From a virus, in IMG/VR virus record IMGVR_UViG_3300025889_001045, positions 1 through 22,456 of that record: a stretch of DNA of 22,456 nt; one strand, given 5' to 3'. Positions 12,474-22,254 of the stretch are shown here, in pieces. The notes under the pieces are model-generated. The model had not been told where the DNA came from. It was given only the letters and a program-made list of their open reading frames with translations, and did not search any database. Position 1 is the first letter of the stretch. Each line of letters begins with the position of its first letter. The position numbers and the translations under genes are program-made.

Positions 12474-13325
12474 ATGGCTGCGAAGACGAGACGTGCGTAT
12501 AAGGGCGGTGCTTTGGCGACGACGTTGTCGGCTCCGTTGAATGCTGGTAATACGACGTTTCAGATCACGGCGTATACCGGTTGGCCGTATGGTTCCGATC
12601 CGTTTTATGTGGTGGTTGAGCCTGGGACAGCGAACGAAGAGAAGATGTTGGTGACTCGTTCCGGGTCAACGGATTTGACGTTGAGTGTGGTGTCTGGTGG
12701 TCGTGGTGTTGATGACACGTCAGATTTGACGCATAACACTGGTTCGGTGATTTATCCGGTGTTCACGGCGGTGGATGCGGATGAGGCGAACGAGTTGGCT
12801 TCGACGTTGACTTCGAAGGGTGATTTGTTGACGATGGATTCAGGTCCGTCGTTTGACAGGTTGGCGGTCGGCACCGATGATTATGTGCTGGTTGCTGATT
12901 CTGGTGAGACAACCGGGTTGAAGTGGGCTCAGGTTGCGACTGCCAGTATTGAGGATGGTGCTGTTACTGAAGCGAAGTTGGCTAATAGTGCTGTTACTGA
13001 CGCGAAGTTGGCTGACAGTTTGGTGACTGGTCGAGCGGCGGTGAATTACACGGGTACGACTCAGACGTTGGCGTTGACTGATGCTGAACGCACTTTGTAT
13101 TTTGATAATGCTGCTCAGGTGACGGTGACGATTCCGACGAATGCTTCGGTTGCGTTTTTGACGGGTACTCGAATTGTTGTGTATTCGGCTGGTGCTGGTG
13201 GTGTTACGTTGTCGACTGCGGGTTTGACGGTTCTTGGTGCGAATACGACGTGTGATCAGTATGAGGCGATGTATTTGGAGAAGTATGACACTGATTCGTG
13301 GATTGTGATTGGTGGTACTTCGTGA
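12474..13325 (+). CDS. Tail fibre-like protein
   Basis: 283 residues, ATG 12474 preceded by AAGGA. The N-terminal 100 residues are a beta module with NTTFQITAYTGWPYGSDPFY, a P-G-x-x-x-E-E-K-M-L-V-T-R segment and S-V-V-S-G-G-R-G-V-D...H-N-T-G-S-V, the same type of attachment module as the start of the gene at 9711. Residues about 155-185 carry two tandem copies of a fibre-stem motif (GAVTEAKLANSAVTDAKLAD), encoded by two near-identical 30-base units at 12960-12989 and 12990-13019. The C-terminal 90 residues form a beta-rich tip typical of phage fibres. It probably trimerises and contacts the host surface. The gene has a very strong T/G-ending codon bias. Confidence 0.8.
   Translation: MAAKTRRAYKGGALATTLSAPLNAGNTTFQITAYTGWPYGSDPFYVVVEPGTANEEKMLVTRSGSTDLTLSVVSGGRGVDDTSDLTHNTGSVIYPVFTAVDADEANELASTLTSKGDLLTMDSGPSFDRLAVGTDDYVLVADSGETTGLKWAQVATASIEDGAVTEAKLANSAVTDAKLADSLVTGRAAVNYTGTTQTLALTDAERTLYFDNAAQVTVTIPTNASVAFLTGTRIVVYSAGAGGVTLSTAGLTVLGANTTCDQYEAMYLEKYDTDSWIVIGGTS
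12960..13019 (+). repeat. Two tandem 30-base units in the fibre stem
   Basis: Units at 12960-12989 and 12990-13019 differ at only a few positions and encode AVTEAKLANS and AVTDAKLADS. Such heptad-like A-V-T-x-A-K-L units are common in fibre shafts and can expand or contract by recombination. Confidence 0.8.
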
Positions 13326-14344
13326 CGATTACTTCTTGGATGTGGTTGCCTGGGATTTTGTCGCAGCAAGGTGTTTTCGGTTCGTCAAATATTGCTATCG
13401 CTCATTTCAACAGCCCGTATGTCAGTGTGTATCCTTGGGTTGCTGGGTTCGGCACGAAGTACAGTGATCCTGCGTCGCTACCATCAGGAAATGGTAATGG
13501 TGTTGCGTTCACGACCGCTGGCGATGCGATCGCTGTCGCTCACAACCTCAACCCGCGTATCGCCGCCTATCCGTGGTCTTCCGGATTCGGAACGAAATAC
13601 GCAGATCCTGCGTCGTCACTGCCAGCTAACAGCAACGGTGTCGCGTTCCCGGCCGCTGATGATGCGATCGCTGTCGCTCACAATAGCAGCCCATACCTCA
13701 CTGTCTACGCTTGGTCTGCCGGGTTCGGATCAAAGTACTCGAACCCGGCGACATTGCCAGCAGATGACGGCGAAGGTGTTGCATTCACAACTGCTGGTGA
13801 TGCAGTTGCTGTCGTTCACGCCAATCTTCCACTCGTCACTGTCTATCCGTGGTCTGCCGGGTTCGGAACAAAATACGCGAACCCTGCGGCGTATCCACCA
13901 TTTACTTGTTTTGATGTCGCGTTCACGACCGCTGATGATGCGATCGCTGTCGCTCACGGGGTAACTCCGTATGTCACTGTTTATCCGTGGTCTGCTGGGT
14001 TCGGTACGAAGTACGCAAATCCTGCGTCGCTCCCGGCGTTCGGAGCTTCAGGTGTTGATTTCTCTGCTAACGACGACACGATCGCTGTGGCGCACTCCAA
14101 CTCGCCGTATGTCACTGTCTACCCTTGGTCTGCCGGGTTCGGCACCAAGTACAGTGATCCTGCGTCGCTACCATCAGGAAATGGTAACAGCGTCACTTTC
14201 TCCGCTAACAGCGGTGCGGTCGCTGTGGCGCACAGCACCTCGCCGTATATCAGTGTGTACCCTTGGTCTGTCGGATTCGGCACCAAGTACAGCAACCCTG
14301 CGTCGCTCCCAGCAGGAACTGGTAACGGCGTCGACTTCGACTAA
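13322..14344 (+). CDS. Seven-repeat beta-propeller protein, probable host-binding tail protein
   Basis: 340 residues from GTG 13322, whose GTGA overlaps the stop of the fibre gene; an earlier in-frame ATG at 13298 would overlap it by 28 bases. After a 22-residue N-terminal piece come seven repeats spaced exactly 46 residues apart (starts near 23, 69, 115, 161, 207, 253, 299). Each has the pattern [AI]-A-V-A-H-x3-P-[YR]-[VI]-x-x-Y-x-W-x-x-GFG-[TS]-KY-x-[DN]-PA, then a Gly-rich turn and a V-x-F strand. Seven four-stranded blades would close one ring. This repeat type, WD40/YVTN-like, is seen in environmental phages. Position after the fibre gene and before the lysis genes suggests a receptor-binding or adhesin role. 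The last blade ends abruptly at V-D-F-D. Confidence 0.85.
   Translation: MTITSWMWLPGILSQQGVFGSSNIAIAHFNSPYVSVYPWVAGFGTKYSDPASLPSGNGNGVAFTTAGDAIAVAHNLNPRIAAYPWSSGFGTKYADPASSLPANSNGVAFPAADDAIAVAHNSSPYLTVYAWSAGFGSKYSNPATLPADDGEGVAFTTAGDAVAVVHANLPLVTVYPWSAGFGTKYANPAAYPPFTCFDVAFTTADDAIAVAHGVTPYVTVYPWSAGFGTKYANPASLPAFGASGVDFSANDDTIAVAHSNSPYVTVYPWSAGFGTKYSDPASLPSGNGNSVTFSANSGAVAVAHSTSPYISVYPWSVGFGTKYSNPASLPAGTGNGVDFD
13388..14341 (+). repeat. Seven in-frame 138-base tandem repeats
   Basis: The coding repeats of the propeller gene are also visible in the DNA with a period of 138 bases. Copies 1 and 6 share an identical 41-base segment (13457-13497 and 14147-14187), exactly 690 bases or five periods apart, whereas other copies have drifted. 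This points to a recent copy or gene-conversion event between blades. Confidence 0.85.
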
Positions 14345-14365: not shown

Positions 14366-14695
14366 ATGTCCAATGCAGAAATCCCCATGACCGCCGCCGA
14401 GCAGGCACAGCGAGTACTTGAGGCTCGACGTGCCGAGGTCGCCCAGTACGACGAGAACATCGCCATGTACGAAGCGATCGCCTCCACTCTTCCTTCAGAA
14501 TGGCCTGAACACTTGTTGCAGCACAAGGGAACGAAAAACCATCAGGCTGCTGCCGCTCAGGCTGCTCCCGAAGATGTCGAGTTGCTCGCACAGTTGTTGA
14601 TGCGTGAGCAGTGCGAAGCGTCAGCGAAGACTGAGAAACTTGAACGTACGAAAGCGGCTGCGATCCTCGCCGTCTTGGAAAGCCGCCAGCCGTGA
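14366..14695 (+). CDS. Small helical phage protein
   Basis: 109 residues from ATG 14366, fixed by GAGGAG at 14353-14358 with 7 bases of spacing; upstream in-frame codons would put the ribosome binding site inside the gene. The protein is almost entirely helical, Ala- and Glu-rich, with a coiled-coil start (AEQAQRVLEARRAEVAQYDE) and a second helix ELLAQLLMREQCEASAKTEK. A segment TLPSEWPEHLLQHKGTKNH sits between them. No motif of known function. It lies between the tail genes and the endolysin and has its own good ribosome binding site. A small tail or chaperone-like protein is possible, but not shown. Confidence 0.75.
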   Translation: MSNAEIPMTAAEQAQRVLEARRAEVAQYDENIAMYEAIASTLPSEWPEHLLQHKGTKNHQAAAAQAAPEDVELLAQLLMREQCEASAKTEKLERTKAAAILAVLESRQP

Positions 14696-14699
14696 TCTG

Positions 14700-15527
14700 A
14701 TGTCTGTCCTGTATCCGACCCGTTACGGCCGTAGGCTTGTCCCGCTTGATGATCTGTTCCGAGAACATCATGTCGACAAGATGCACCCCGAGTTCGCTCG
14801 ACGGTTGCGCTGCTGGTTGGAAGCACAGGGAGGTCATGTCGGTATCGGTGGTTCGTGGCGTGACGACGGATCGCAACCCGACAAGCCAGGGTTCGCACCG
14901 GAGGGACGATCCTTCCACCAGTATCAGCGGTTCGGTTCTGGACTCGTCAAGTTCGCCGCTGTCGATCTCGTCTGCCGCAACGGATCGAACGTCCACCGGG
15001 CACCACGCTGGGATGAAGTGCCGGTGCAGGACTCCGCTATCGCAGCGAAATGGGGTGTCCACGCGAACGTGTCCACCGAATCGTGGCACATGCAACCAAT
15101 CGAGATCGACGGCTGGGCGAGCTGGATCAAAGCCGGATCGCCTGATCCCAGACCGTTCTATCCGACACCTTGTTCACGTCCCAATCTGACACCGGAGATG
15201 ACCATGCGCCTCGTTGACCCACCGCAACGCCTCCTCGACACGAGGCAGTCACGCACACCGAAGGACGGTGAGACGATCTTTGTTACGATCCCTGGCGGGG
15301 CGAAGGCTGCGTTCATCAATCTGACAGTGGTGCATCCTGCCAAGAACGGATACGCGTCTATGTTCTCGCCGGCGTCTGGTCGACCGGAAACCAGCAACTT
15401 GAACTATGTCGCCGGTCAGATCATTTGTAACACGTCGTGGGTGCCTGTCGCACCGAACGGGATGATCGGTGTCTATGTCTCTGCGGCGACGAACGTCATT
15501 GTCGATTTGCAGGCGGTTGCACAGTGA
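14700..15527 (+). CDS. Endolysin: M15-type peptidase fused to an actinobacterial exported-protein domain
   Basis: 275 residues from ATG 14700. Residues about 25-145 are a D-Ala-D-Ala carboxypeptidase-like (M15 superfamily) domain: SWRDDGSQPDKPGF, then SFHQYQRFGSGLVKFAAVDL with probable zinc ligands His73 and Asp89, then STESWHMQP giving Glu127 and His130 (ExxH). This should cut a peptide bond in peptidoglycan cross-links. Residues about 170-275 form a second domain starting with QRLLDTR and ending with VYVSAATNVIVDLQAVA. This RLLDTR-type domain is common on secreted actinobacterial proteins (established pattern, from memory); binding to the cell wall is inferred. No signal peptide is seen, so a holin should release it. 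The downstream genes are the holin and a one-TM protein. Confidence 0.85.
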   Translation: MSVLYPTRYGRRLVPLDDLFREHHVDKMHPEFARRLRCWLEAQGGHVGIGGSWRDDGSQPDKPGFAPEGRSFHQYQRFGSGLVKFAAVDLVCRNGSNVHRAPRWDEVPVQDSAIAAKWGVHANVSTESWHMQPIEIDGWASWIKAGSPDPRPFYPTPCSRPNLTPEMTMRLVDPPQRLLDTRQSRTPKDGETIFVTIPGGAKAAFINLTVVHPAKNGYASMFSPASGRPETSNLNYVAGQIICNTSWVPVAPNGMIGVYVSAATNVIVDLQAVAQ

Positions 15528-15748
15528 GCAACGGCACTCTTGCTATCGCGTTGGCGATCTTGGCACCTGGCGGCGTTCTCGCTGTAATGATTGAACGGAC
15601 CCGCCGAGACAACAACAGAGATCACAGCCGCAACTCTGAACTGTTACATAAGATTGATGGTAAAGTGACTCAGATCGACGGCAAAGTTGACAAGGTTGAT
15701 GAGAGATTGTTCACTCATCTTCAGGACCATTGGAAGGAAGACAGATGA
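15524..15748 (+). CDS. One-TM coiled-coil protein of the lysis cassette
   Basis: 74 residues from GTG 15524 (GTGA overlap with the endolysin stop). An N-terminal transmembrane helix (GTLAIALAILAPGGVLAVMI, about 4-23) is followed by a positive segment ERTRRDNNRDH and then a hydrophilic coiled coil with repeated KIDGKVTQIDGKVDKVDERL. The topology resembles class III or accessory holins of Gram-positive phages, or an anchored coiled-coil protein that helps regulate lysis. It sits between the endolysin and a two-TM holin, so it may be the second holin partner or a lysis regulator. Homology is not shown here. Confidence 0.75.
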   Translation: MSNGTLAIALAILAPGGVLAVMIERTRRDNNRDHSRNSELLHKIDGKVTQIDGKVDKVDERLFTHLQDHWKEDR

Positions 15749-15942
15749 AGAACGCAATCAAGTCTTGGGTGAAGGTTTTCGTGGCGACTGTGTTCGCGTT
15801 GATCCTCGCTGATGGTGTCGATCTTGCCGGGATCGGTGCGGATGAGGTGCGTGGCTGGCTTGCCGCTGGTACTGCTTCGGTGCTGCCGTTGATCATCACC
15901 TGGCTCGATCCGGATGATGACAGGTTCGGTCGAACGCGCTAA
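15745..15942 (+). CDS. Two-TM holin
   Basis: 65 residues from ATG 15745, with GGAAGGAAG at 15732-15740 as ribosome binding site, favoured over an in-frame TTG at 15730. Two transmembrane segments at about 8-22 (WVKVFVATVFALILA) and 38-54 (WLAAGTASVLPLIITWL), joined by a short loop with DGVDLAGIGADEVRG. The C terminus DPDDDRFGRTR is a pattern I recall from actinophage holins (short acidic stretch then D-x-R-[FY]-G). Placed right after the endolysin and the one-TM protein. It would form holes in the host membrane at the end of infection. Confidence 0.82.
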   Translation: MKNAIKSWVKVFVATVFALILADGVDLAGIGADEVRGWLAAGTASVLPLIITWLDPDDDRFGRTR

Positions 15943-16175
15943 TGAATCTTGCTGACCTGTTGGGTCAGGCACCACGAGCACCTGGTACGACGTGTTGGGT
16001 GGCGCTTGCCCGACAGGAGTTGCAGAGTGAGGATCGGGCAACGTTTGAATCTGCGCTGCTTGATCCCGGTGTGACTGCTGTCAGTTTGTCTGAGGCGTTG
16101 CATGTGTTGGGTGTTGATTTGGGCGCGCATACGATCAGCCGTCACCGTCGAGGATTATGCAAATGTCCGAGGTGA
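15942..16175 (+). CDS. Small conserved actinophage protein, helix-turn-helix-like
   Basis: 77 residues; the ATG at 15942 shares its A with the TAA of the holin gene. The sequence has an N-terminal helix, the segment TTCWVALARQELQSEDRATF with a long charged helix, then LLDPGVTAVSLSEALHVLGV and a C-terminal ISRHRRGLCKCPR. The arrangement helix, short turn, helix, then H-R-R-G-x-C-x-C is a pattern I recall from small actinophage proteins. The second half (AVSLSEALHVLGVDLGAHTISRHRRG) looks like a helix-turn-helix that recognises DNA, but this is inferred. It lies between lysis and the acetyltransferase-fold gene. Confidence 0.72.
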   Translation: MNLADLLGQAPRAPGTTCWVALARQELQSEDRATFESALLDPGVTAVSLSEALHVLGVDLGAHTISRHRRGLCKCPR

Positions 16176-16696
16176 GAGTCGTGCCGCTCGAACTTGTTGA
16201 AGCGAATCGGTTTGTCGCTTTGCATCACAGGCATCATCAACCTGTAGTCGGACATCGTTTCAGTCTTGGAATCGTTGACAGCAATGATGTTTTGCGCGGA
16301 GCGTGCATCGTTGGAAGACCTGTTGCAAGATTGGGTGGTCATCCACGACAAACCGTGGAAGTCACGCGTTTAGTCACCGACGGAGTTGCTAACGGCTGCT
16401 CAATGCTTTACGGAGCGGCTGCTCGGGCAGCTAAGTCGATGGGATATCAAAGAATACAGACGTACATTCTTGATATTGAAACTGGTGTGTCGTTGCGTGC
16501 GTCGGGATGGGTTTGTGAAGGTGCGGCTGGTGGCGGTATTTGGAAACACACCGACAACAAGCCTCGTCGGACAGATCAACCAACAGGTCTCAAATCAAGA
16601 TGGTCATTGACTTTCACGAACATGCCACCCAGAGACATCACAATCAATGTTGCTGATGCCGATGTGATGCAATTGAAGTTTGGTGGCATGTCATGA
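16163..16696 (+). CDS. XF1762-like acetyltransferase-fold (GNAT-type) protein
   Basis: 177 residues from ATG 16163, preferred because AGGA at 16151-16154 lies 8 bases upstream; an ATG at 16157 is a close alternative. The sequence has ANRFVALHHRHHQPVVGHRF at the start, then a G-x-x-x-V-G-R-P-V-A-R strand-turn, EVTRLVTDGVANGCSMLYGA, YQRIQTYILDIETGVSLRAS and a GWVCEGAAGGGIWKH segment, ending with a P-R-R-T-D-Q segment. This order matches the XF1762-type family, a divergent GNAT fold found in phages (recognised from memory). The donor and substrate are not known. The last 25 residues (from about TNMPPRDITI) lie outside the family core. A base- or protein-modifying role is possible. Confidence 0.8.
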   Translation: MSEVRVVPLELVEANRFVALHHRHHQPVVGHRFSLGIVDSNDVLRGACIVGRPVARLGGHPRQTVEVTRLVTDGVANGCSMLYGAAARAAKSMGYQRIQTYILDIETGVSLRASGWVCEGAAGGGIWKHTDNKPRRTDQPTGLKSRWSLTFTNMPPRDITINVADADVMQLKFGGMS

Positions 16697-17469
16697 CACT
16701 CGCCGCTGAGCTCGCTGCACGACAGCCGAGACTGTTGACGATCGACATCGAAACGCGTCCGCTCACCGCGCATGTGTGGGGTATACGAGAACAGAACATC
16801 GGCATCAACCAGATCGTGGATCAAGGCGGTGTGATGTGTTGGGCGGCGAAATGGCACGACGAGAAACGAGTCATGTTCTCGTCGGATTTCCATGACGGCC
16901 ACAACGAAATGATTTTGCGTGCCTGGAACCTGTTGGACGAAGCCGACATCGTTATCGGCTGGAACCATCGTGCGTTCGACCTCAAACACCTCCAACGCGA
17001 GTTCGTGCTGGCCGGTCTGGGCGCTCCGACACCGTGGCAAGACGTTGACCTTCTACAAACAGTTCGGAGACGGTTCAAATTCCCGTCGAACAAACTTGAT
17101 TGGGTGGCCCGTGAACTCGGCGTCGGCGCGAAACTGTCGCACACCGGCATGGACCTGTGGCAGCGTTGCATGGACGGCGACGAACGAGCATGGCGGCTGA
17201 TGAAAAAGTACAACATCCAAGACGTAAAGCTCACCGAAACACTGTACGACCGGCTCCTCGGATGGGTGCCGAACCATCCGAACATCAACATGCTCCGCGC
17301 CGAACGGATCTCAGCGTGTTCCACATGCGGATCTCAGAACCTCGAGGGTGTAGGTGTCCACGTCACTGCGACACGCGCCTACGAACGTTTCCGCTGCAAA
17401 GATTGCGGTGCGTACTCTCGAACGTCGCATTCCGATCCTCGCCGTACACAGCATCGTCGTGGCGTCTGA
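16693..17469 (+). CDS. DEDDy 3'-5' exonuclease-like protein with C-terminal zinc ribbon
   Basis: 258 residues; ATG 16693 overlaps the previous stop (ATGA). RNase H-fold exonuclease motifs are visible: LLTIDIETRP with Asp18 and Glu20, GWNHRAFDLKHL with Asp96, and KKYNIQDVKL with Tyr173 and Asp177 (Y-x3-D), i.e. the DEDDy set of the DnaQ-like superfamily. A four-cysteine zinc ribbon follows at about 209-238 (CSTCG ... CKDCG), then a basic tail. No polymerase domain is attached, so it is a free-standing exonuclease that could trim DNA ends, proofread or degrade RNA. Such fusions occur in actinophages (from memory). It is coupled to the GNAT-type gene upstream. Confidence 0.85.
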   Translation: MTLAAELAARQPRLLTIDIETRPLTAHVWGIREQNIGINQIVDQGGVMCWAAKWHDEKRVMFSSDFHDGHNEMILRAWNLLDEADIVIGWNHRAFDLKHLQREFVLAGLGAPTPWQDVDLLQTVRRRFKFPSNKLDWVARELGVGAKLSHTGMDLWQRCMDGDERAWRLMKKYNIQDVKLTETLYDRLLGWVPNHPNINMLRAERISACSTCGSQNLEGVGVHVTATRAYERFRCKDCGAYSRTSHSDPRRTQHRRGV

Positions 17470-17482
17470 CTACGATCTGATC

Positions 17483-17746
17483 ATGGCATCACCGAAAGTT
17501 CCGAACCCGAAACGATCAGCCCGCTACTACCGGGAGAACCCCGAGGCGCGTCGGAAGAAAGCCGAATACGAAAAGAAGTATCAGGCGCAGCCGGCGCAAC
17601 GGAAGAAGGCTGCGGAGCGTCGGAAGTGGCGACGTGCGAACGGTCTCGAGGGTAAGGGCGGTCCGGATGCGTCGCACACGAAGGACGGGAAGTTGGTGCG
17701 TGAGTCAGCGTCGAAGAACCGTGCGAGGAACCGAGGTCGGAAATGA
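17483..17746 (+). CDS. Small very basic conserved phage protein
   Basis: 87 residues from ATG 17483, 13 bases after the previous stop. The sequence KVPNPKRSARYYRENPEAR, a long Lys/Arg/Glu helix, then GPDASHTKDGKLVRESASKN and RARNRGRK is a pattern I recall from many phages (KRSAxYYRxNPEAR, S-H-T-K-x-G-K-L-V and a K-N-R-A-R-N ending). About 40 percent of the residues are charged. The function is unknown; nucleic acid binding is suggested by charge. The stop overlaps the ATGATG of the next tiny gene. Confidence 0.78.
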   Translation: MASPKVPNPKRSARYYRENPEARRKKAEYEKKYQAQPAQRKKAAERRKWRRANGLEGKGGPDASHTKDGKLVRESASKNRARNRGRK

Positions 17747-17841
17747 TGTTGTGGGTGTGTCCGAAGTGCGGGCATGAATGGGCTGGTAACAGTTCGCGTT
17801 GCGAGCAGTGCGGTGCTCACGGCGACCCTGACTACGAGTAG
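17743..17841 (+). CDS. 32-residue zinc ribbon peptide
   Basis: The ATG at 17743 overlaps the stop of the previous gene. The product MMLWVCPKCGHEWAGNSSRC plus EQCGAHGDPDYE has two Cys-x2-Cys pairs (CPKC and CEQC) with the spacing of a rubredoxin-like zinc ribbon. It fits exactly between the upstream gene and the promoter gap at 17842. Such free zinc ribbons may bind DNA, RNA or a partner protein. Coupling and the regular cysteine spacing support a real gene in spite of its length. Confidence 0.65.
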   Translation: MMLWVCPKCGHEWAGNSSRCEQCGAHGDPDYE

Positions 17842-17842
17842 G

Positions 17843-17872
17843 TTGCCAACTGTCACACCGTCTGGTTAGACT
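17843..17872 (+). promoter_or_regulatory. Putative sigma-70-type promoter of the recombination block
   Basis: TTGCCA at 17843-17848 (five of six bases of the -35 consensus) and TAGACT at 17867-17872 (four of six of the -10 consensus) are 18 bases apart, in the only clear gap of this region (64 bases), and are followed 20 bases later by a very strong ribosome binding site. They fit a promoter for the genes starting at 17906. Confidence 0.55.
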
Positions 17873-17892
17873 GCCTACCAGATCCCAACCAT

Positions 17893-17901
17893 AGAAGGAG
17901 G
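17893..17901 (+). promoter_or_regulatory. Near-perfect ribosome binding site
   Basis: AGAAGGAGG matches the anti-Shine-Dalgarno sequence almost completely and lies 4 bases before the ATG at 17906. It fixes the start of the exonuclease gene and suggests high early expression. Confidence 0.75.
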
Positions 17902-17905
17902 ACCC

Positions 17906-18844
17906 ATGGCGCACACCACTGTGCTCAAACCGCCGCATGGCAGCCTAGATTGGCTTCGTCTGCGGCAACGCACCACCGGAGGTCATCCGGTCGTGTCCGC
18001 TTCGGAAGCTGCTGCTGTCCACGACGCACACCGGTTCATATCGAAGTACAAGCTGGCGACCGACAAACTCGCCGAGCAGCCTGTTGTGACCGAAACGAAC
18101 GAGGCGATGGACCGAGGTAACCGTCTCGAACCGGTACTGCTGGACTGGGTGAGTGACAAGATCGGAGAACAAGTTTTCTCACCGGACATCATGTACCGGT
18201 ACAGCGAACCCGGTGTTGAACTGATCGCCACCCTCGACGGTGTCACCGGCCATCCGGAGAACCCCGATCGGATCGTTGAGATCAAAACCTACAACCGTCT
18301 GTTCGACCCTGAGACGATGCCAGCGTACTGGTATTGGCAAGGTGTCCAGCAGGCGTTGTGCGCCGATGTTGACACGGTGATCTGGGGTGTGTTCGACGCG
18401 TCGCTGTCACTACACATCCACGAACAGCATGTGTCCCAACCGGAGAAAGACGATCACATTTTCGCCGTGTGGGATTTCACACAGCAAATCTCCAACGGGT
18501 CGATCCCCGAAGAGTGGGCTCGGACGTTCACCGATCTGAAAGACATCCCTGCCGATTCGAACAGTGTCGCAGATGTCACCGATCTGTCTGCACAAGTCGG
18601 AGAACTGATCGAAGTGCAAACCGAAATGCGCCGCCTGAAAGAACGAGAAGATTCGTTGAAAACGTTGCTCGGCGCACGACTCGGTTCGGCAACTATCGGC
18701 ACGATCAACGGCGAAACAGCGATCACCTGGAAAGAATCGATCCGTGCCGGGTTCGACACTCGACGGTTCCAAACCGATCATCCGGACATCGCCGCCGAAT
18801 ACTCCACACACACCACCTATCGAGTGATGAGGACCAAGAAATGA
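17906..18844 (+). CDS. YqaJ-type (lambda exonuclease-like) recombination exonuclease
   Basis: 312 residues. PD-(D/E)XK nuclease of the YqaJ/RecE-like type: SASEAAAVHDAHRF near 31-44, DRGNRLEPVLLDW with Glu75, then LIATLDGVTG with Asp111, and RIVEIKTYN with Glu125 and Lys127 (the D...ExK active site), followed by YWYWQGVQQALCA with Gln145 typical of this family. The C-terminal third is a helical, charged extension (VQTEMRRLKEREDSLKTLL) that may be a partner-binding arm. It is expected to resect double-stranded DNA and leave single strands for the annealing protein encoded next. Starts under its own promoter and strong ribosome binding site. Confidence 0.88.
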   Translation: MAHTTVLKPPHGSLDWLRLRQRTTGGHPVVSASEAAAVHDAHRFISKYKLATDKLAEQPVVTETNEAMDRGNRLEPVLLDWVSDKIGEQVFSPDIMYRYSEPGVELIATLDGVTGHPENPDRIVEIKTYNRLFDPETMPAYWYWQGVQQALCADVDTVIWGVFDASLSLHIHEQHVSQPEKDDHIFAVWDFTQQISNGSIPEEWARTFTDLKDIPADSNSVADVTDLSAQVGELIEVQTEMRRLKEREDSLKTLLGARLGSATIGTINGETAITWKESIRAGFDTRRFQTDHPDIAAEYSTHTTYRVMRTKK

Positions 18845-19425
18845 GAGATGAACTGCTGAACGTCCTACACAGTTACGCTGTGCCCGATCCGAGAATCGTC
18901 GCGAAACTCCCACGATCCGGCACCCAACTCGACTACGTCGGCCACGCCGAAATCACCCGCATCCTGCTTGAGATCGATCCGATGTGGACGATCGAACCGG
19001 CAGCGTGTGACGACACCGGCCTGCCGGCGGTTCGTAACAACGGCAAAATGTTGGAGGCTGCGTTTTGGTTGACGTTGCTTGGGCATCGCCGTTACTGTGT
19101 CGGTTCGGTGGAGGCCCGCAAAGCGGACGCTGATCTGAGTAAGGAACTGCTGTCGGATGCGATCAGGAACGGTGCGATGCGGTTTGGTATCGCTTTGTCG
19201 CTCTGGTCGAAAGAGGAATGGCAGGCCGGTGATCTGATGCCTGCACCAGTCAAGAAGCCTGGTGCTGCGTCAACACAGGATCGTGTCGTCATGTTCAAGG
19301 TGGCGTGCGAGAAAGTCGGGTTGGATCCCGAACGGGTAGCCGAACATGCTGGTGTGAACCTCGGTTCGGTGGATGATGACGGATTGTCGAAGCTGCGTGC
19401 AGCATTTCAGGAGATGAAAGCATGA
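18841..19425 (+). CDS. Rad52-like single-strand annealing protein
   Basis: 194 residues from ATG 18841 (ATGA overlap with the exonuclease stop). Motifs in order: KLPRSGTQLDYVGHAEITR (22-40), IDPMWTIEP (45-53), a G-L-P-A-V turn, and KELLSDAIRNGAMRFGIALS (101-120). They match a phage family related to Rad52-type single-strand annealing proteins, where the K-E-L-x-x-D-A-x-R-N-x-A-M-R-F-G helix is the most conserved part. Homologues I recall often carry a zinc-finger insertion after KLPRS; here it is absent. A flexible Pro/Ala-rich linker and a small C-terminal helical part (VMFKVACEKVGLDPERV) follow. It would anneal strands made by the exonuclease with help from SSB. Confidence 0.8.
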   Translation: MRDELLNVLHSYAVPDPRIVAKLPRSGTQLDYVGHAEITRILLEIDPMWTIEPAACDDTGLPAVRNNGKMLEAAFWLTLLGHRRYCVGSVEARKADADLSKELLSDAIRNGAMRFGIALSLWSKEEWQAGDLMPAPVKKPGAASTQDRVVMFKVACEKVGLDPERVAEHAGVNLGSVDDDGLSKLRAAFQEMKA

Positions 19426-19781
19426 ACAGGATCACAGTTGTTGGGAATGTCGGTCAGGATCCGCAGTTGCGGTACTCGCCGTCAGGGAAAGCGATCGTCA
19501 AGTTTTCGGTGGCTGACACCACCGGCAAAGACGACCAGAAGAAAACGGTGTGGCATGACGTGGTCGCGTTCGATGAACAAGCTGAGAACGTCGCCGCTCA
19601 GGTGGTGAAAGGTTCCCGTGTGGTTGTGACCGGACGGTTGAACAAGGAACCGTTCGAAGGGAAAGACGGTGTGAAGCGTGTATCGGTCGAGGTAATCGCC
19701 GACGAGGTCGGTGTGTCACTCCGCTGGGGTCAATCATCAAACACGTCTCGAGGGCAGACAGCACCCGAGGAGCCGTTCTGA
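19422..19781 (+). CDS. ssb: Single-stranded DNA-binding protein
   Basis: 119 residues; ATG 19422 overlaps the previous stop. A standard OB-fold SSB core: MNRITVVGNVGQDPQLRYSP at the start, VWHDVVAFDEQAENVAAQVV and KGSRVVVTGRLNKEPFE, then SVEVIADEVGVSLRWG. The short linker ends with the acidic tip EEPF, matching the D/E-rich tail with terminal Phe that binds partner proteins. It is shorter than bacterial SSB (usually 150-180 residues) because the linker is short. It protects single strands in replication and in the exonuclease/annealing reaction encoded just upstream. Confidence 0.92.
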   Translation: MNRITVVGNVGQDPQLRYSPSGKAIVKFSVADTTGKDDQKKTVWHDVVAFDEQAENVAAQVVKGSRVVVTGRLNKEPFEGKDGVKRVSVEVIADEVGVSLRWGQSSNTSRGQTAPEEPF

Positions 19782-19999
19782 TGATCGATCCGTTTGTTGA
19801 GCATGTGACGCCGCCGTGCGGTTTGTGCGGTGAACGTTCCGTGATGCGGGTCGACGCTGACCGTTTGAAAGAATGGCGGAACGGCACGTTCATTCAGGTG
19901 GCGTTCCCTGAGATGACTGTTGATCAGCGGGAACAGTTGAAGACAGGGATCCATAAGGATTGTTGGGATTTGCTGTTCCCAGAACCGGATGCGATGTGA
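19781..19999 (+). CDS. Small conserved phage protein with CxxC
   Basis: 72 residues; ATG 19781 shares its A with the SSB stop. Features are PPCGLCGERSVMRVDADRLK (a Cys-x2-Cys pair), WRNGTFIQVAFPEMTVDQRE and QLKTGIHKDCWDLLFPEPD. The pattern P-P-C-x-x-C-G, W-x-x-G-x-x-I-Q-x-A-F-P, R-E-x-L-x-T-G-I-H-x-x-C-W recurs in small actinophage proteins of unknown function (from memory). One further Cys and a His in the G-I-H-x-x-C-W segment could complete a metal site. Location in the recombination block suggests a role with DNA. Confidence 0.78.
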   Translation: MIDPFVEHVTPPCGLCGERSVMRVDADRLKEWRNGTFIQVAFPEMTVDQREQLKTGIHKDCWDLLFPEPDAM

Positions 20000-20067
20000 T
20001 GTGGTTGGCGGCTCTGGTCTTCCTGGCAGGTATCGGGTTGCTGTTGATAGCGGAGAAGATGCGGTGA
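19999..20067 (+). CDS. 22-residue single-TM peptide
   Basis: ATG 19999 overlaps the previous stop (TGATG) and the TGA at 20065-20067 overlaps the next GTG. The product MWLAALVFLAGIGLLLIAEK plus MR is one transmembrane helix with a positively charged end. It exactly fills the space between two coupled genes. Tiny membrane peptides like this are known from phages, but no homologue can be shown here. It could also be a leader that only couples translation. Confidence 0.45.
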   Translation: MWLAALVFLAGIGLLLIAEKMR

Positions 20068-20228
20068 AGATCCGTGTTGAATGGGGTTGCGGCCGGTGTG
20101 CTGCACGGCTGGTAACTCATACGAAACTGACCGAACCTCCAGTTCATCGTTGCGGTTCGAAACGTCGCAGTGTTCCTCTTGTGGCAACAGATCCAGAACT
20201 CGCACAGAAAGCGTTAGGTCGTGAGTAA
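20064..20228 (+). CDS. Small zinc-ribbon-like protein (54 aa)
   Basis: GTG 20064 overlaps the upstream stop and the gene ends 8 bases inside the next one (GTG 20221). The product begins VKIRVEWGCGRCAARLVTHT and has Cys-Gly-x-Cys plus a later H-R-C-G-S-K-R-R-S, three cysteines and a histidine that can form a zinc site. The C terminus (ATDPELAQKALGRE) is helical. Resembles other phage mini zinc proteins; function unknown. Overlaps on both sides support it. Confidence 0.62.
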   Translation: MKIRVEWGCGRCAARLVTHTKLTEPPVHRCGSKRRSVPLVATDPELAQKALGRE

Positions 20229-20556
20229 GCAACGGGCGAAAGGCACATCGTTCGAAACATTGATCGTCCGCTACCTGAACGACCACGGGTTCCCACACGC
20301 CGAACGTCGAGCATTGCACGGCACCGCCGACCTCGGCGACATCACCGGAACCCCAGGGATCGTATGGGAATGCAAAAACCATAAACAGTTGAGGTTGTCA
20401 GAATGGATGCAAGAAACAGCCGTCGAAACCGTAAACGCCGACGCAGAAATCGGTGTGCTCGTAGCGAAACGGGCAGGTCATGGCACAGCAGACAGCCAAT
20501 ACGCGATCGTCACATTGGAAACGATGGTCCGCTTATTGAAGGCCGCTGGCTGGTGA
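20221..20556 (+). CDS. PD-(D/E)XK nuclease, Holliday junction resolvase-like
   Basis: 111 residues from GTG 20221. Motifs of an archaeal Hjc/VRR-like small nuclease: RAKGTSFETLIVRYLNDHGF with Glu12, ERRALHGTADLGDITG with Asp40, and IVWECKNHKQL with Glu50 and Lys52 (the D...ExK set). The following helix (LSEWMQETAVETVNADAE) and VLVAKRAGHGTADSQYAIV complete a compact domain. The size, about 110 residues, is typical of phage resolvase-like nucleases. It probably cuts branched DNA produced by recombination before packaging. The stop overlaps the next GTG. Confidence 0.8.
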   Translation: MSKQRAKGTSFETLIVRYLNDHGFPHAERRALHGTADLGDITGTPGIVWECKNHKQLRLSEWMQETAVETVNADAEIGVLVAKRAGHGTADSQYAIVTLETMVRLLKAAGW

Positions 20557-21149
20557 CCGCCGCACTGCTCCCGCTGCTACTCGCCGGGTTGACCATCGCA
20601 GATCGCAGAAACCCGACCGTCGCACAACCCGTCGAACAACCCGCCGAGATCATCCCGGCGACAACCGTCGAAACGGTCGCGGCTACTGTCACAGCGACAG
20701 CAACACGAATCACCACCACCACCACCACCACCACAACAACAACGACGACGACGACGTTGCCGGGATGGACAGGACCAATCCCCGAACATTACGGTCCAGG
20801 CAGCGGCTGCACACCACAACAAGCCGACATCATCGCCCGCACCTACCGCACCTACGGGGCATCCGACGACACCATCCTCTGGGCACTCGGAATGATCTCG
20901 AGAGAATCAACGTGTGACAGCAGCGCACACAACGGCAACCGCAACACAGGAGATAACTCGTGGGGAATCTGCCAAATCAACGCTCTCGCCGGCCACTTCA
21001 CAACGAACGGGATCGTGAACGGATACGACCCGTACCGGTTCGCCAGCGACTTTCAACACAACGTCGACGCGTGCGCCGTACTCTGGTCGTATTGCGGGCG
21101 TGGACCTTGGAACTACGGCAACTACTACTGTCAGCAACCAGAATCATGA
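20553..21149 (+). CDS. Secreted or membrane-anchored lysozyme-like protein with Thr15 stalk
   Basis: 198 residues from GTG 20553 (GTGA overlap). N terminus TAALLPLLLAGLTIADRR is a signal peptide or anchor helix. A Pro/Val/Thr-rich linker follows, with 15 threonines in a row at residues 54-68, then LPGWTGPIPEHYG. The C-terminal domain (about 85-198) looks like a lysozyme/transglycosylase fold of the actinobacterial type: ILWALGMISRESTCDSSAHN with probable catalytic Glu118, NSWGICQINALAGHF and a CAVLWSYCGRGPWNYG segment; several cysteines could form disulfides outside the cell. It would cut peptidoglycan glycan strands. It is not in the lysis cassette but among the DNA genes, so it may serve another step of infection. 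Confidence 0.75.
   Translation: MTAALLPLLLAGLTIADRRNPTVAQPVEQPAEIIPATTVETVAATVTATATRITTTTTTTTTTTTTTTLPGWTGPIPEHYGPGSGCTPQQADIIARTYRTYGASDDTILWALGMISRESTCDSSAHNGNRNTGDNSWGICQINALAGHFTTNGIVNGYDPYRFASDFQHNVDACAVLWSYCGRGPWNYGNYYCQQPES
20712..20756 (+). repeat. Threonine triplet tract (ACC7-ACA3-ACG5)
   Basis: Fifteen Thr codons in three blocks, seven ACC, three ACA and five ACG, encode the stalk of the lysozyme-like protein. Pure triplet blocks are prone to slip, so the length may vary between related phages. Confidence 0.9.
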
Positions 21150-21454
21150 ACGACAAACAAAAAATCTTGGAACTTCACGTCCGCAACGACAAAACTTTCA
21201 TTCTGCTATCAGGCCTCTACGACTGGATCAACAGTGTCCACCCCGAAATGATCGCCGAACTCCCGTACGGGCTCAACGCCCAAATCCTGTACATGCTCGG
21301 CGACATCGAATACAACGAAGTTCAAACATGGGATGACTCGATCGTCACCGCGTTCGTTGCGGAACTCACCGAAATCCACGAAACGTGCATCATCACCGGC
21401 TGCAACATCTGTTCAGGGTTACGCACCTACGAGCAGTGGCGGCAATCACGATGA
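21146..21454 (+). CDS. Phage protein of unknown function with CxxxxCxxC tail
   Basis: 102 residues from ATG 21146, overlapping the previous stop by 4 bases. Mostly helical: ILELHVRNDKTFILLSGLYD, a segment VHPEMIAELPYGLNAQILYM and EVQTWDDSIVTAFVAELTEI. The C-terminal 20 residues contain HETCIITGCNICSGL, three cysteines near a His. I do not recognise the family. It sits between the lysozyme-like gene and the DUF3310 gene, overlapping both, so it is part of the same transcript. Base composition is strongly A/C-rich like its neighbours. Confidence 0.7.
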   Translation: MNDKQKILELHVRNDKTFILLSGLYDWINSVHPEMIAELPYGLNAQILYMLGDIEYNEVQTWDDSIVTAFVAELTEIHETCIITGCNICSGLRTYEQWRQSR

Positions 21455-21675
21455 AACAGGCACAAAAAGTTGACCACCCAGCCCATTACACCCGACATCC
21501 GTCAGGGATCGAGTGCATTGATGTCGTCAGACACATGAACTTCAACCTTGGCAACGTCATGAAATACGTGTGGCGCAGCGGAGAGAAAAACGGCGAGCCT
21601 GCTCTTGACGATCTAAAGAAAGCAATGTGGTATCTGGATGATGAAATCCAACGACTAGAGGCTCGTCGTGACTGA
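21451..21675 (+). CDS. DUF3310 (SaV-like) protein
   Basis: 74 residues from ATG 21451 (ATGA overlap). The sequence VDHPAHYTRHPSGIECIDVV followed by NFNLGNVMKYVWRSGEKNG and LDDLKKAMWYLDDEIQRL is the standard DUF3310 signature (H-P-x-H-Y, G-x-E-x-I-D, N-x-x-K-Y-x-W-R, D-L-x-K-A-x-W-Y-L). This family is found in many phages, usually near nucleotide or DNA metabolism genes; its activity is not established. The stop is 8 bases inside the WhiB gene. Confidence 0.88.
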   Translation: MKQAQKVDHPAHYTRHPSGIECIDVVRHMNFNLGNVMKYVWRSGEKNGEPALDDLKKAMWYLDDEIQRLEARRD

Positions 21676-22006
21676 ACGCAACTTGTGGATGCAACAAGCC
21701 GCCTGCCGCGACCTCGGCCCACGACTGTTCTTCCCAGAACGAGGCGAACCAGTCTCCAAAGCAAAAAAAGTATGTGCCACCTGCCCCGTCACCGAAGAAT
21801 GCCTCGCATACGGCATCGCCGAACGGATCGGCATCTGGGGAGGTATCAGCGAATCGGAACGTCGAGCAATGTTCCGAGGGAAGAAACGACCGTCGAAACG
21901 CATCCACCACGGCATCTGGGAAAGCTACCGTAAATGCCAGAACAGCAACAACGGTGAAGCATGCCGCTACTGCTCATACGCGTGGGAAAGGTACACGAAC
22001 CCGTGA
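21668..22006 (+). CDS. WhiB-type iron-sulfur transcription factor with extra C-terminal zinc module
   Basis: 112 residues from GTG 21668. The WhiB core is complete: Cys13, then CATCPVTEEC with Cys36, Cys39 and Cys45 for the 4Fe-4S cluster, and the GIWGG turn at 55-59 followed by basic residues (GKKRPSKR) for DNA contact. WhiB proteins occur in Actinobacteria and their phages, bind the primary sigma factor and change transcription. Unusually, the protein continues with HHGIWESYRKCQNSNNGEAC and RYC, that is His80/81, Cys90, Cys99 and Cys102. This resembles the separate small zinc protein encoded next (C-x..H-x..C-x2-C) and may be a fused zinc knuckle. Probably controls host or late phage genes. 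Confidence 0.9.
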   Translation: MTERNLWMQQAACRDLGPRLFFPERGEPVSKAKKVCATCPVTEECLAYGIAERIGIWGGISESERRAMFRGKKRPSKRIHHGIWESYRKCQNSNNGEACRYCSYAWERYTNP

Positions 22007-22254
22007 GTTTCGTTGTAGAACACTGCCGGGACATCGCCCACCAAGAATCGAAAGCGTTACGGCTCCTCCTCCGAGCGCACGGCCGCTACCCGAGAACACG
22101 CCCAGCGAACATTTTCGAAGGGTTGCCGATAGGGGCACCGAACTGCAACGACCCGTCGTTCTCGTCGCTGTACCAGCATCGAAGCCGGAAAGAACCGGCA
22201 TGTGAAGCATGTAAAATGTGGCGGCGACACCTCGAGAAACATCGCGACAAGTAA
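22003..22254 (+). CDS. Small zinc-knuckle-like actinophage protein
   Basis: 83 residues from GTG 22003 (GTGA overlap with WhiB); an in-frame ATG at 21961 would overlap WhiB by 46 bases and is less likely. The N-terminal half is helical (QESKALRLLLRAHGRYPRTR). The C-terminal half has GAPNCNDPSFSSLYQHRSRK and EPACEACKMWRRHLEKH, giving Cys48, His59, Cys67 and Cys70. The motif Y-x-x-H-x-x-x-x-E-x-x-C-x-x-C recurs in actinophage proteins next to WhiB genes (from memory). It is like the tail of the WhiB protein upstream. Last gene of the operon; a partner or regulator role is inferred. Confidence 0.72.
   Translation: MSFVVEHCRDIAHQESKALRLLLRAHGRYPRTRPANIFEGLPIGAPNCNDPSFSSLYQHRSRKEPACEACKMWRRHLEKHRDK

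Follow-up and report, generated by a model that had tools for sequence, protein, structure and literature searches.

A second, probably exported lysozyme-like enzyme encoded among the DNA genes of an uncultured virus

We found that an uncultured virus (IMG/VR record IMGVR_UViG_3300025889_001045) encodes a second lysozyme-like enzyme that is probably exported and whose gene lies outside the presumed lysis cassette, as the first-pass annotation of this DNA had proposed; its placement among DNA genes recurs in relatives. The reading that we consider most likely, and hold with moderate confidence, is an accessory muralytic enzyme that would be exported by Sec independently of a holin and would load the cell wall before lysis. 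Directly supported are the gene, its conservation, the predicted fold, a candidate catalytic Glu, the N-terminal hydrophobic segments of the family and, for several phages, a location of the gene apart from the lysis operon.

The gene and its setting in the window

The window, by which we mean the whole analysed stretch of 22,456 nucleotides, contains the open reading frame exactly where it had been annotated, complete with a Thr15 tract (Table 1). Its position between a resolvase-like nuclease gene and DUF3310 in the DNA gene block was likewise borne out, with one gene between it and DUF3310. At both ends, the gene shares 4 bases with its neighbor: the GTG start with the TGA that closes the resolvase-like gene, and the stop with the ATG (21146) of the gene that follows. 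A longer reading frame from ATG 20403 (248 aa) was rejected: its extra 50 residues are rich in Arg and come from the resolvase gene read out of frame, and starting at GTG 20553 produces the customary 4-base overlap. The gene is part of an unbroken run in the order YqaJ exonuclease, one gene of no assigned function, SSB, two unassigned genes, RusA-like resolvase, lysozyme, one unassigned gene, DUF3310, WhiB and a last unassigned gene. Upstream, genes overlap from 15942 to 17746, and a 159-bp gap (17747-17905) is the sole break in the gene chain between the lysis cassette and the exonuclease. Since all of these genes are on one strand, the window alone does not settle timing; a scan for promoters and terminators gave counts at chance level.

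Table 1. Coordinates of the gene, its parts and neighboring features in the window
Feature	Position	Strand	Remarks
Lysozyme-superfamily gene, putatively exported product	20553..21149	+	198 aa, GTG start
N-terminal uncharged/hydrophobic segment MTAALLPLLLAGLTIA	20553..20600	+	16 residues, putative signal peptide or anchor
Pro/Thr-rich linker	20601..20759	+	residues 17-69
Thr15 tract	20712..20756	+	residues 54-68
Lysozyme/SLT-like predicted catalytic domain	20763..21146	+	residues 71-198, ~127 residues
Proposed catalytic Glu118 codon, motif S-R-E-S	20904..20906	+	
RusA-like/resolvase nuclease gene	20221..20556	+	phrog_244, E 3e-27
Gene of no assigned function, directly downstream of lysozyme gene	21146..21454	+	102 aa
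DUF3310 gene (PF11753)	21451..21675	+	one gene further downstream of lysozyme gene
WhiB-family gene (PF02467)	21668..22006	+	actinobacterial host marker
Unbroken run of 11 overlapping genes	17906..22254	+	from YqaJ exonuclease to beyond WhiB
Presumed canonical lysis cassette	14682..15942	+	M15-like protein plus two membrane-protein ORFs (15515-15748, 15730-15942)

The lysis cassette had been annotated at 14700-15942, and an M15-like motif followed by two membrane-protein ORFs was indeed present there, but the presumed endolysin (14682-15527) matched no profile in Pfam or PHROGs and no isolate phage. It is M15-like by its conserved motif SFHQ...AVDLV...SWHMQ only, and profile comparison with the M15-type endolysins of relatives gave no match beyond this motif. 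The protein also has an extra C-terminal domain (RLLDTRQ...VDLQAVAQ), conserved across three further contigs. In three contigs that encode related endolysins, synteny was too low for the presence or absence of the lysozyme gene to be interpreted. Just downstream of the cassette, 16157-16696 encodes a Mom-like DNA-modification protein (phrog_1384, E 2.5e-34), and upstream, 13298-14344 encodes a putative tail protein, perhaps a fibre resembling a beta-propeller, in which an AVAHxxSPYVTVYPWSAGFGTKYxDPASLP-like unit is repeated about seven times.

The annotated export signal or anchor stood in part. The N terminus is hydrophobic, as it is in the family members examined that have a complete N terminus, but the hydrophobic run of the window copy is not preceded by Lys or Arg and thus has no positive n-region, which makes the signal weak by sequence; most relatives, unlike the window copy, carry Lys/Arg ahead of the run. 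Cleavage after TIA or TVA is possible in the window copy. A Pro/Thr-rich linker is present in most members examined. The canonical lipobox LTAC, absent from the window copy, was found only in L033 and L034, which suggests that these two proteins are membrane lipoproteins; the lipobox-bearing lysozyme gene together with the primase region is nearly identical between the two contigs (L033:394-1026 and L034:1938-2579). In the near-twin contig L001, the Thr15 tract is intact with 8 of the 15 Thr codons changed, all synonymously. Therefore, what is preserved appears to be the Thr run of the protein, and a mere DNA repeat is unlikely.

Conservation, predicted fold and candidate active site

When IMG/VR was searched with the domain, and also with the degenerate pattern N-x-N-x-x-T-x-D-x-S-x-G-x-C-Q, the domain was recovered from 20 other contigs, some of them near-duplicates, and a contig of a metagenome-assembled genome (MAG) brought the number to 21; this contig (G021:C23, from a bin labelled Rhodobacterales) is itself a phage genome. 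Since the protein recurs in about 20 other uncultured virus contigs, it represents a real protein family, and its members occur in several phage backgrounds that seem to be unrelated. Glu118, Gln141 and six Cys (86, 121, 140, 174, 181 and 193) are invariant in all 19 aligned domains. The dN/dS ratio against the nearest distinct relatives was 0.05 to 0.07, with dS saturated or nearly so.

Among the INPHARED isolates, no convincing relative was found: the window protein had no match (best E 0.01), the L041-type domain had none either, and the L005-type domain gave one weak match (E 0.8) to the endolysin region of a Pseudoalteromonas phage. In GTDB contigs, the profile scan returned nothing and the pattern scan only one MAG contig, a phage genome, at the sensitivities used. 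PHROGs and NCBIfam yielded no meaningful match. With Pfam SLT_3 (PF18896), the window protein scored 19.2 bits, below the curated cut-off of 27 bits, and other family members reached E-values down to 8.9e-5.

An AlphaFold (AF2) model of the domain, built with 19 sequences, had a pLDDT of 85.3 and a pTM of 0.83; in an earlier prediction for the full protein, the linker was poor and the domain merely fair. VIA-align superimposed the domain model on MltE of Escherichia coli with a Z score of 9.7 (rmsd 2.5 A over 99 residues) and on insect and human c-type lysozymes with Z scores of about 9. Foldseek found the same families with E-values (best E 0.1) that are too weak to carry a fold claim alone. 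The predicted model supports a lysozyme-superfamily fold with an invariant Glu: S-R-E-S ends a helix and thereby puts Glu118 at the position of the catalytic Glu, profile alignment sets it opposite a Glu of Bombyx lysozyme, and the E-S and G-x-x-Q motifs of the lysozyme/SLT superfamily are present. Structure prediction, which the first-pass annotation had set in advance as the test of its lysozyme claim, thus returned the fold, with the Glu in 19 of 19 aligned domains. The predicted enzyme may be either a hydrolase (lysozyme) or a lytic transglycosylase.

A cousin of the domain, the SLT domain of L003 that is encoded upstream of tail genes, was aligned by hhalign with an E-value of 2e-10, again with Glu118 opposite a Glu. 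In the L003 domain, Trp and Met stand in place of Cys121 and Cys140 (motifs ESGW and GLMQ), from which we infer that the Cys are characteristic of the exported form and would form pairs outside the cytoplasm. L003:82-1107 encodes this tail-type SLT lysozyme, and L003 thus has three peptidoglycan enzymes (tail-type, exported and M15-like endolysin).

Host, setting in relatives and proposed role

WhiB genes are present in the window and in 8 of the 21 relative contigs; four of the closest relatives have one, which in three is no more than about 1 kb away. WhiB genes are described as confined to the actinobacteria as a phylum, and phages of this phylum are recognised by them (PMC6802176). The virus host is probably an actinobacterium; the WhiB evidence fits Acidimicrobiia, at which the first-pass annotation had hinted from the style of the stalk, no better than other actinobacteria. 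As for G021, its Rhodobacterales label may indicate the real host or may have arisen from an error in binning.

Across the family, the gene is repeatedly but not always grouped with DNA genes. In G021:C23 (41.4 kb), the plus strand carries a RecE-like exonuclease, a Rad52-like protein, then the lysozyme and then SSB, and the minus strand carries terminase, portal, major head protein, large structural ORFs and an amidase endolysin. This contig (L060, L046 and L061) also encodes an anti-restriction protein (phrog_7245). In G015 (46.5 kb), the identified genes are all on one strand, and the lysozyme gene lies beyond a primase-polymerase, about 26 kb from the endolysin; a separate endolysin was thus recognised in both G015 and G021. 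The gene is likewise within the DNA module in G016 and near helicase and SSB in G001 and G003. The gene is flanked in L003 and L005-L008 by structural genes on one side and holin-like/endolysin genes on the other, and it is close to tail, terminase or endolysin genes in L009, L011, L042 and L045. Directly downstream of the lysozyme gene, L003 (8419-9762), L005, L007 and L008 have a gene for another protein that looks secreted and bears very long Thr/Ser/Pro stalks (up to 520 aa); the L005 copy has no PHROGs match. The DNA-gene placement and the opposite strand in G021 keep a role in mid-infection possible, and the several relatives with the gene near tail, holin or endolysin genes, as expected of a lysis helper, keep a lysis role alive.

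Actual export, disulfides, catalysis, timing and a contribution to lysis are what we infer. The protein would be made together with the replication and recombination proteins and leave the cytoplasm via Sec without a holin. Its disulfide-stabilised domain would fold outside the reducing cytoplasm, and the Trp and Met of the L003 cousin are consistent with Cys that are particular to the secreted form. The flexible Thr/Pro stalk may hold the enzyme near the membrane, or the enzyme may be released from it; either way, it could reach and nick peptidoglycan before lysis and, after membrane depolarisation, help the canonical holin and M15-like endolysin to finish lysis. Against the accessory-lysin reading stand the grouping with DNA genes and not with late genes, which is seen in the window, G015/G016 and G021 and is needless for a pure lysis factor, the absence of a cell-wall-binding domain and the missing positive n-region of the window signal. 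It had also been argued that early export points to a role other than lysis, but this argument was not supported. Exported endolysins build up in the wall and act after loss of the PMF; Lys44 of phage fOg44 is exported as it is made and accumulates there, and energised cells are unharmed by the engineered secreted SP-LysSPP1 and keep growing (PMC6116005). Because exported endolysins are tolerated until depolarisation, early synthesis by itself is no argument against a lysis role.

A bolder reading, which we put forward only tentatively, is that of an undescribed family of stalked, disulfide-bonded surface phage lysozymes that would be made with the replication genes and would reshape the wall early, excluding competitors or priming the wall, a mid-infection function distinct from both entry and lysis. 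Phages are known to use wall enzymes for entry (virion lysozymes) and for exit (endolysins). Exported lysozymes among replication genes, in G021 on the strand opposite to the recognised late genes, point to either a wall function in mid-infection or advance loading of the wall before lysis. The domain is small and soluble, and its function is therefore testable without first growing the uncultured host. A wall-remodelling or host-state enzyme, which would serve neither lysis nor exclusion but a gentle peptidoglycan turnover during infection that would allow continued growth, release muropeptides or wake slow-growing hosts in an Rpf-like manner, is unlikely. A probably exported lysozyme-superfamily domain grouped with replication genes would fit such a wall-remodelling enzyme, as would the WhiB genes of the closest relatives, but WhiB is common in actinophages generally, and the Rpf model (Pfam Transglycosylas, PF06737) was unmatched at E <= 0.1 in 10 members. 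Nor do we favor a superinfection blocker, which seems quite improbable: made early and tethered at the outer face of the membrane, it would alter peptidoglycan or capture incoming tail lysozymes or tape-measure proteins and so stop injection. Phage exclusion lipoproteins such as Llp of T5 and Ltp of TP-J34 are known, and the lipobox of two members, the resemblance of the family to the tail-type SLT of L003, the grouping with DNA genes and the strand in G021 agree with exclusion. However, the intact catalytic motif and strong purifying selection suggest an enzyme rather than a decoy, and several members adjoin lysis or tail genes. A literature search found no exclusion protein of lysozyme fold, no phage Rpf and no exported actinophage lysozyme.

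If the lysozyme-like protein were the principal endolysin and the gene at 14682-15527 something else, the failure of the latter's product to match any profile or isolate phage would be accounted for. We regard this as very unlikely, since the M15-like H/D/H motif of that product is conserved in three relatives, its gene overlaps the two membrane-protein ORFs, and other family members occur in contigs with an unambiguous endolysin. That the protein has kept the fold but no longer cuts peptidoglycan, acting instead as a binder or inhibitor, would agree with the individually weak Foldseek matches, but members that are about 50% identical all retain SRES, GxCQ and the Glu, and we give this explanation hardly any credence.

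Comparison with known systems

With the c-type lysozymes of Bombyx and human, the domain shares the predicted fold and the alignment of the catalytic Glu, but identity is only 9 to 16%, and the second catalytic Asp has no established equivalent in the family. To SLT_3 and the lysozyme domains of phage tape-measure proteins there is a partial sequence match in the catalytic region; in contrast to these, the window protein falls below the cut-off, stands alone, is probably secreted and is not a virion domain. MltE/SLT-type (GH23-like) lytic transglycosylases have the fold and the E-S and G-x-x-Q motifs in common with the family, and MltE is also membrane-anchored, but identity is about 14%, and the family is phage-encoded, has six invariant Cys and lacks a lipobox in most members.

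Exported endolysins, that is Lys44 of fOg44 and the SAR endolysins Lyz of P1 and R21, have a muralytic domain behind an N-terminal export signal and are exported independently of a holin, features that the window protein would probably share. They are, however, the main endolysins of their phages (PMC6116005). An e-endolysin is the main lytic enzyme in the lysis cassette, whereas the gene described here lies in the DNA module in the window, G015, G016 and G021; lysis-cassette placement holds, loosely, only for L003 and L005-L009. Unlike the genes for Lys44, Lyz and R21, the gene of the window is an additional one, located in a replication operon, and its product carries a long Thr/Pro stalk and six Cys.
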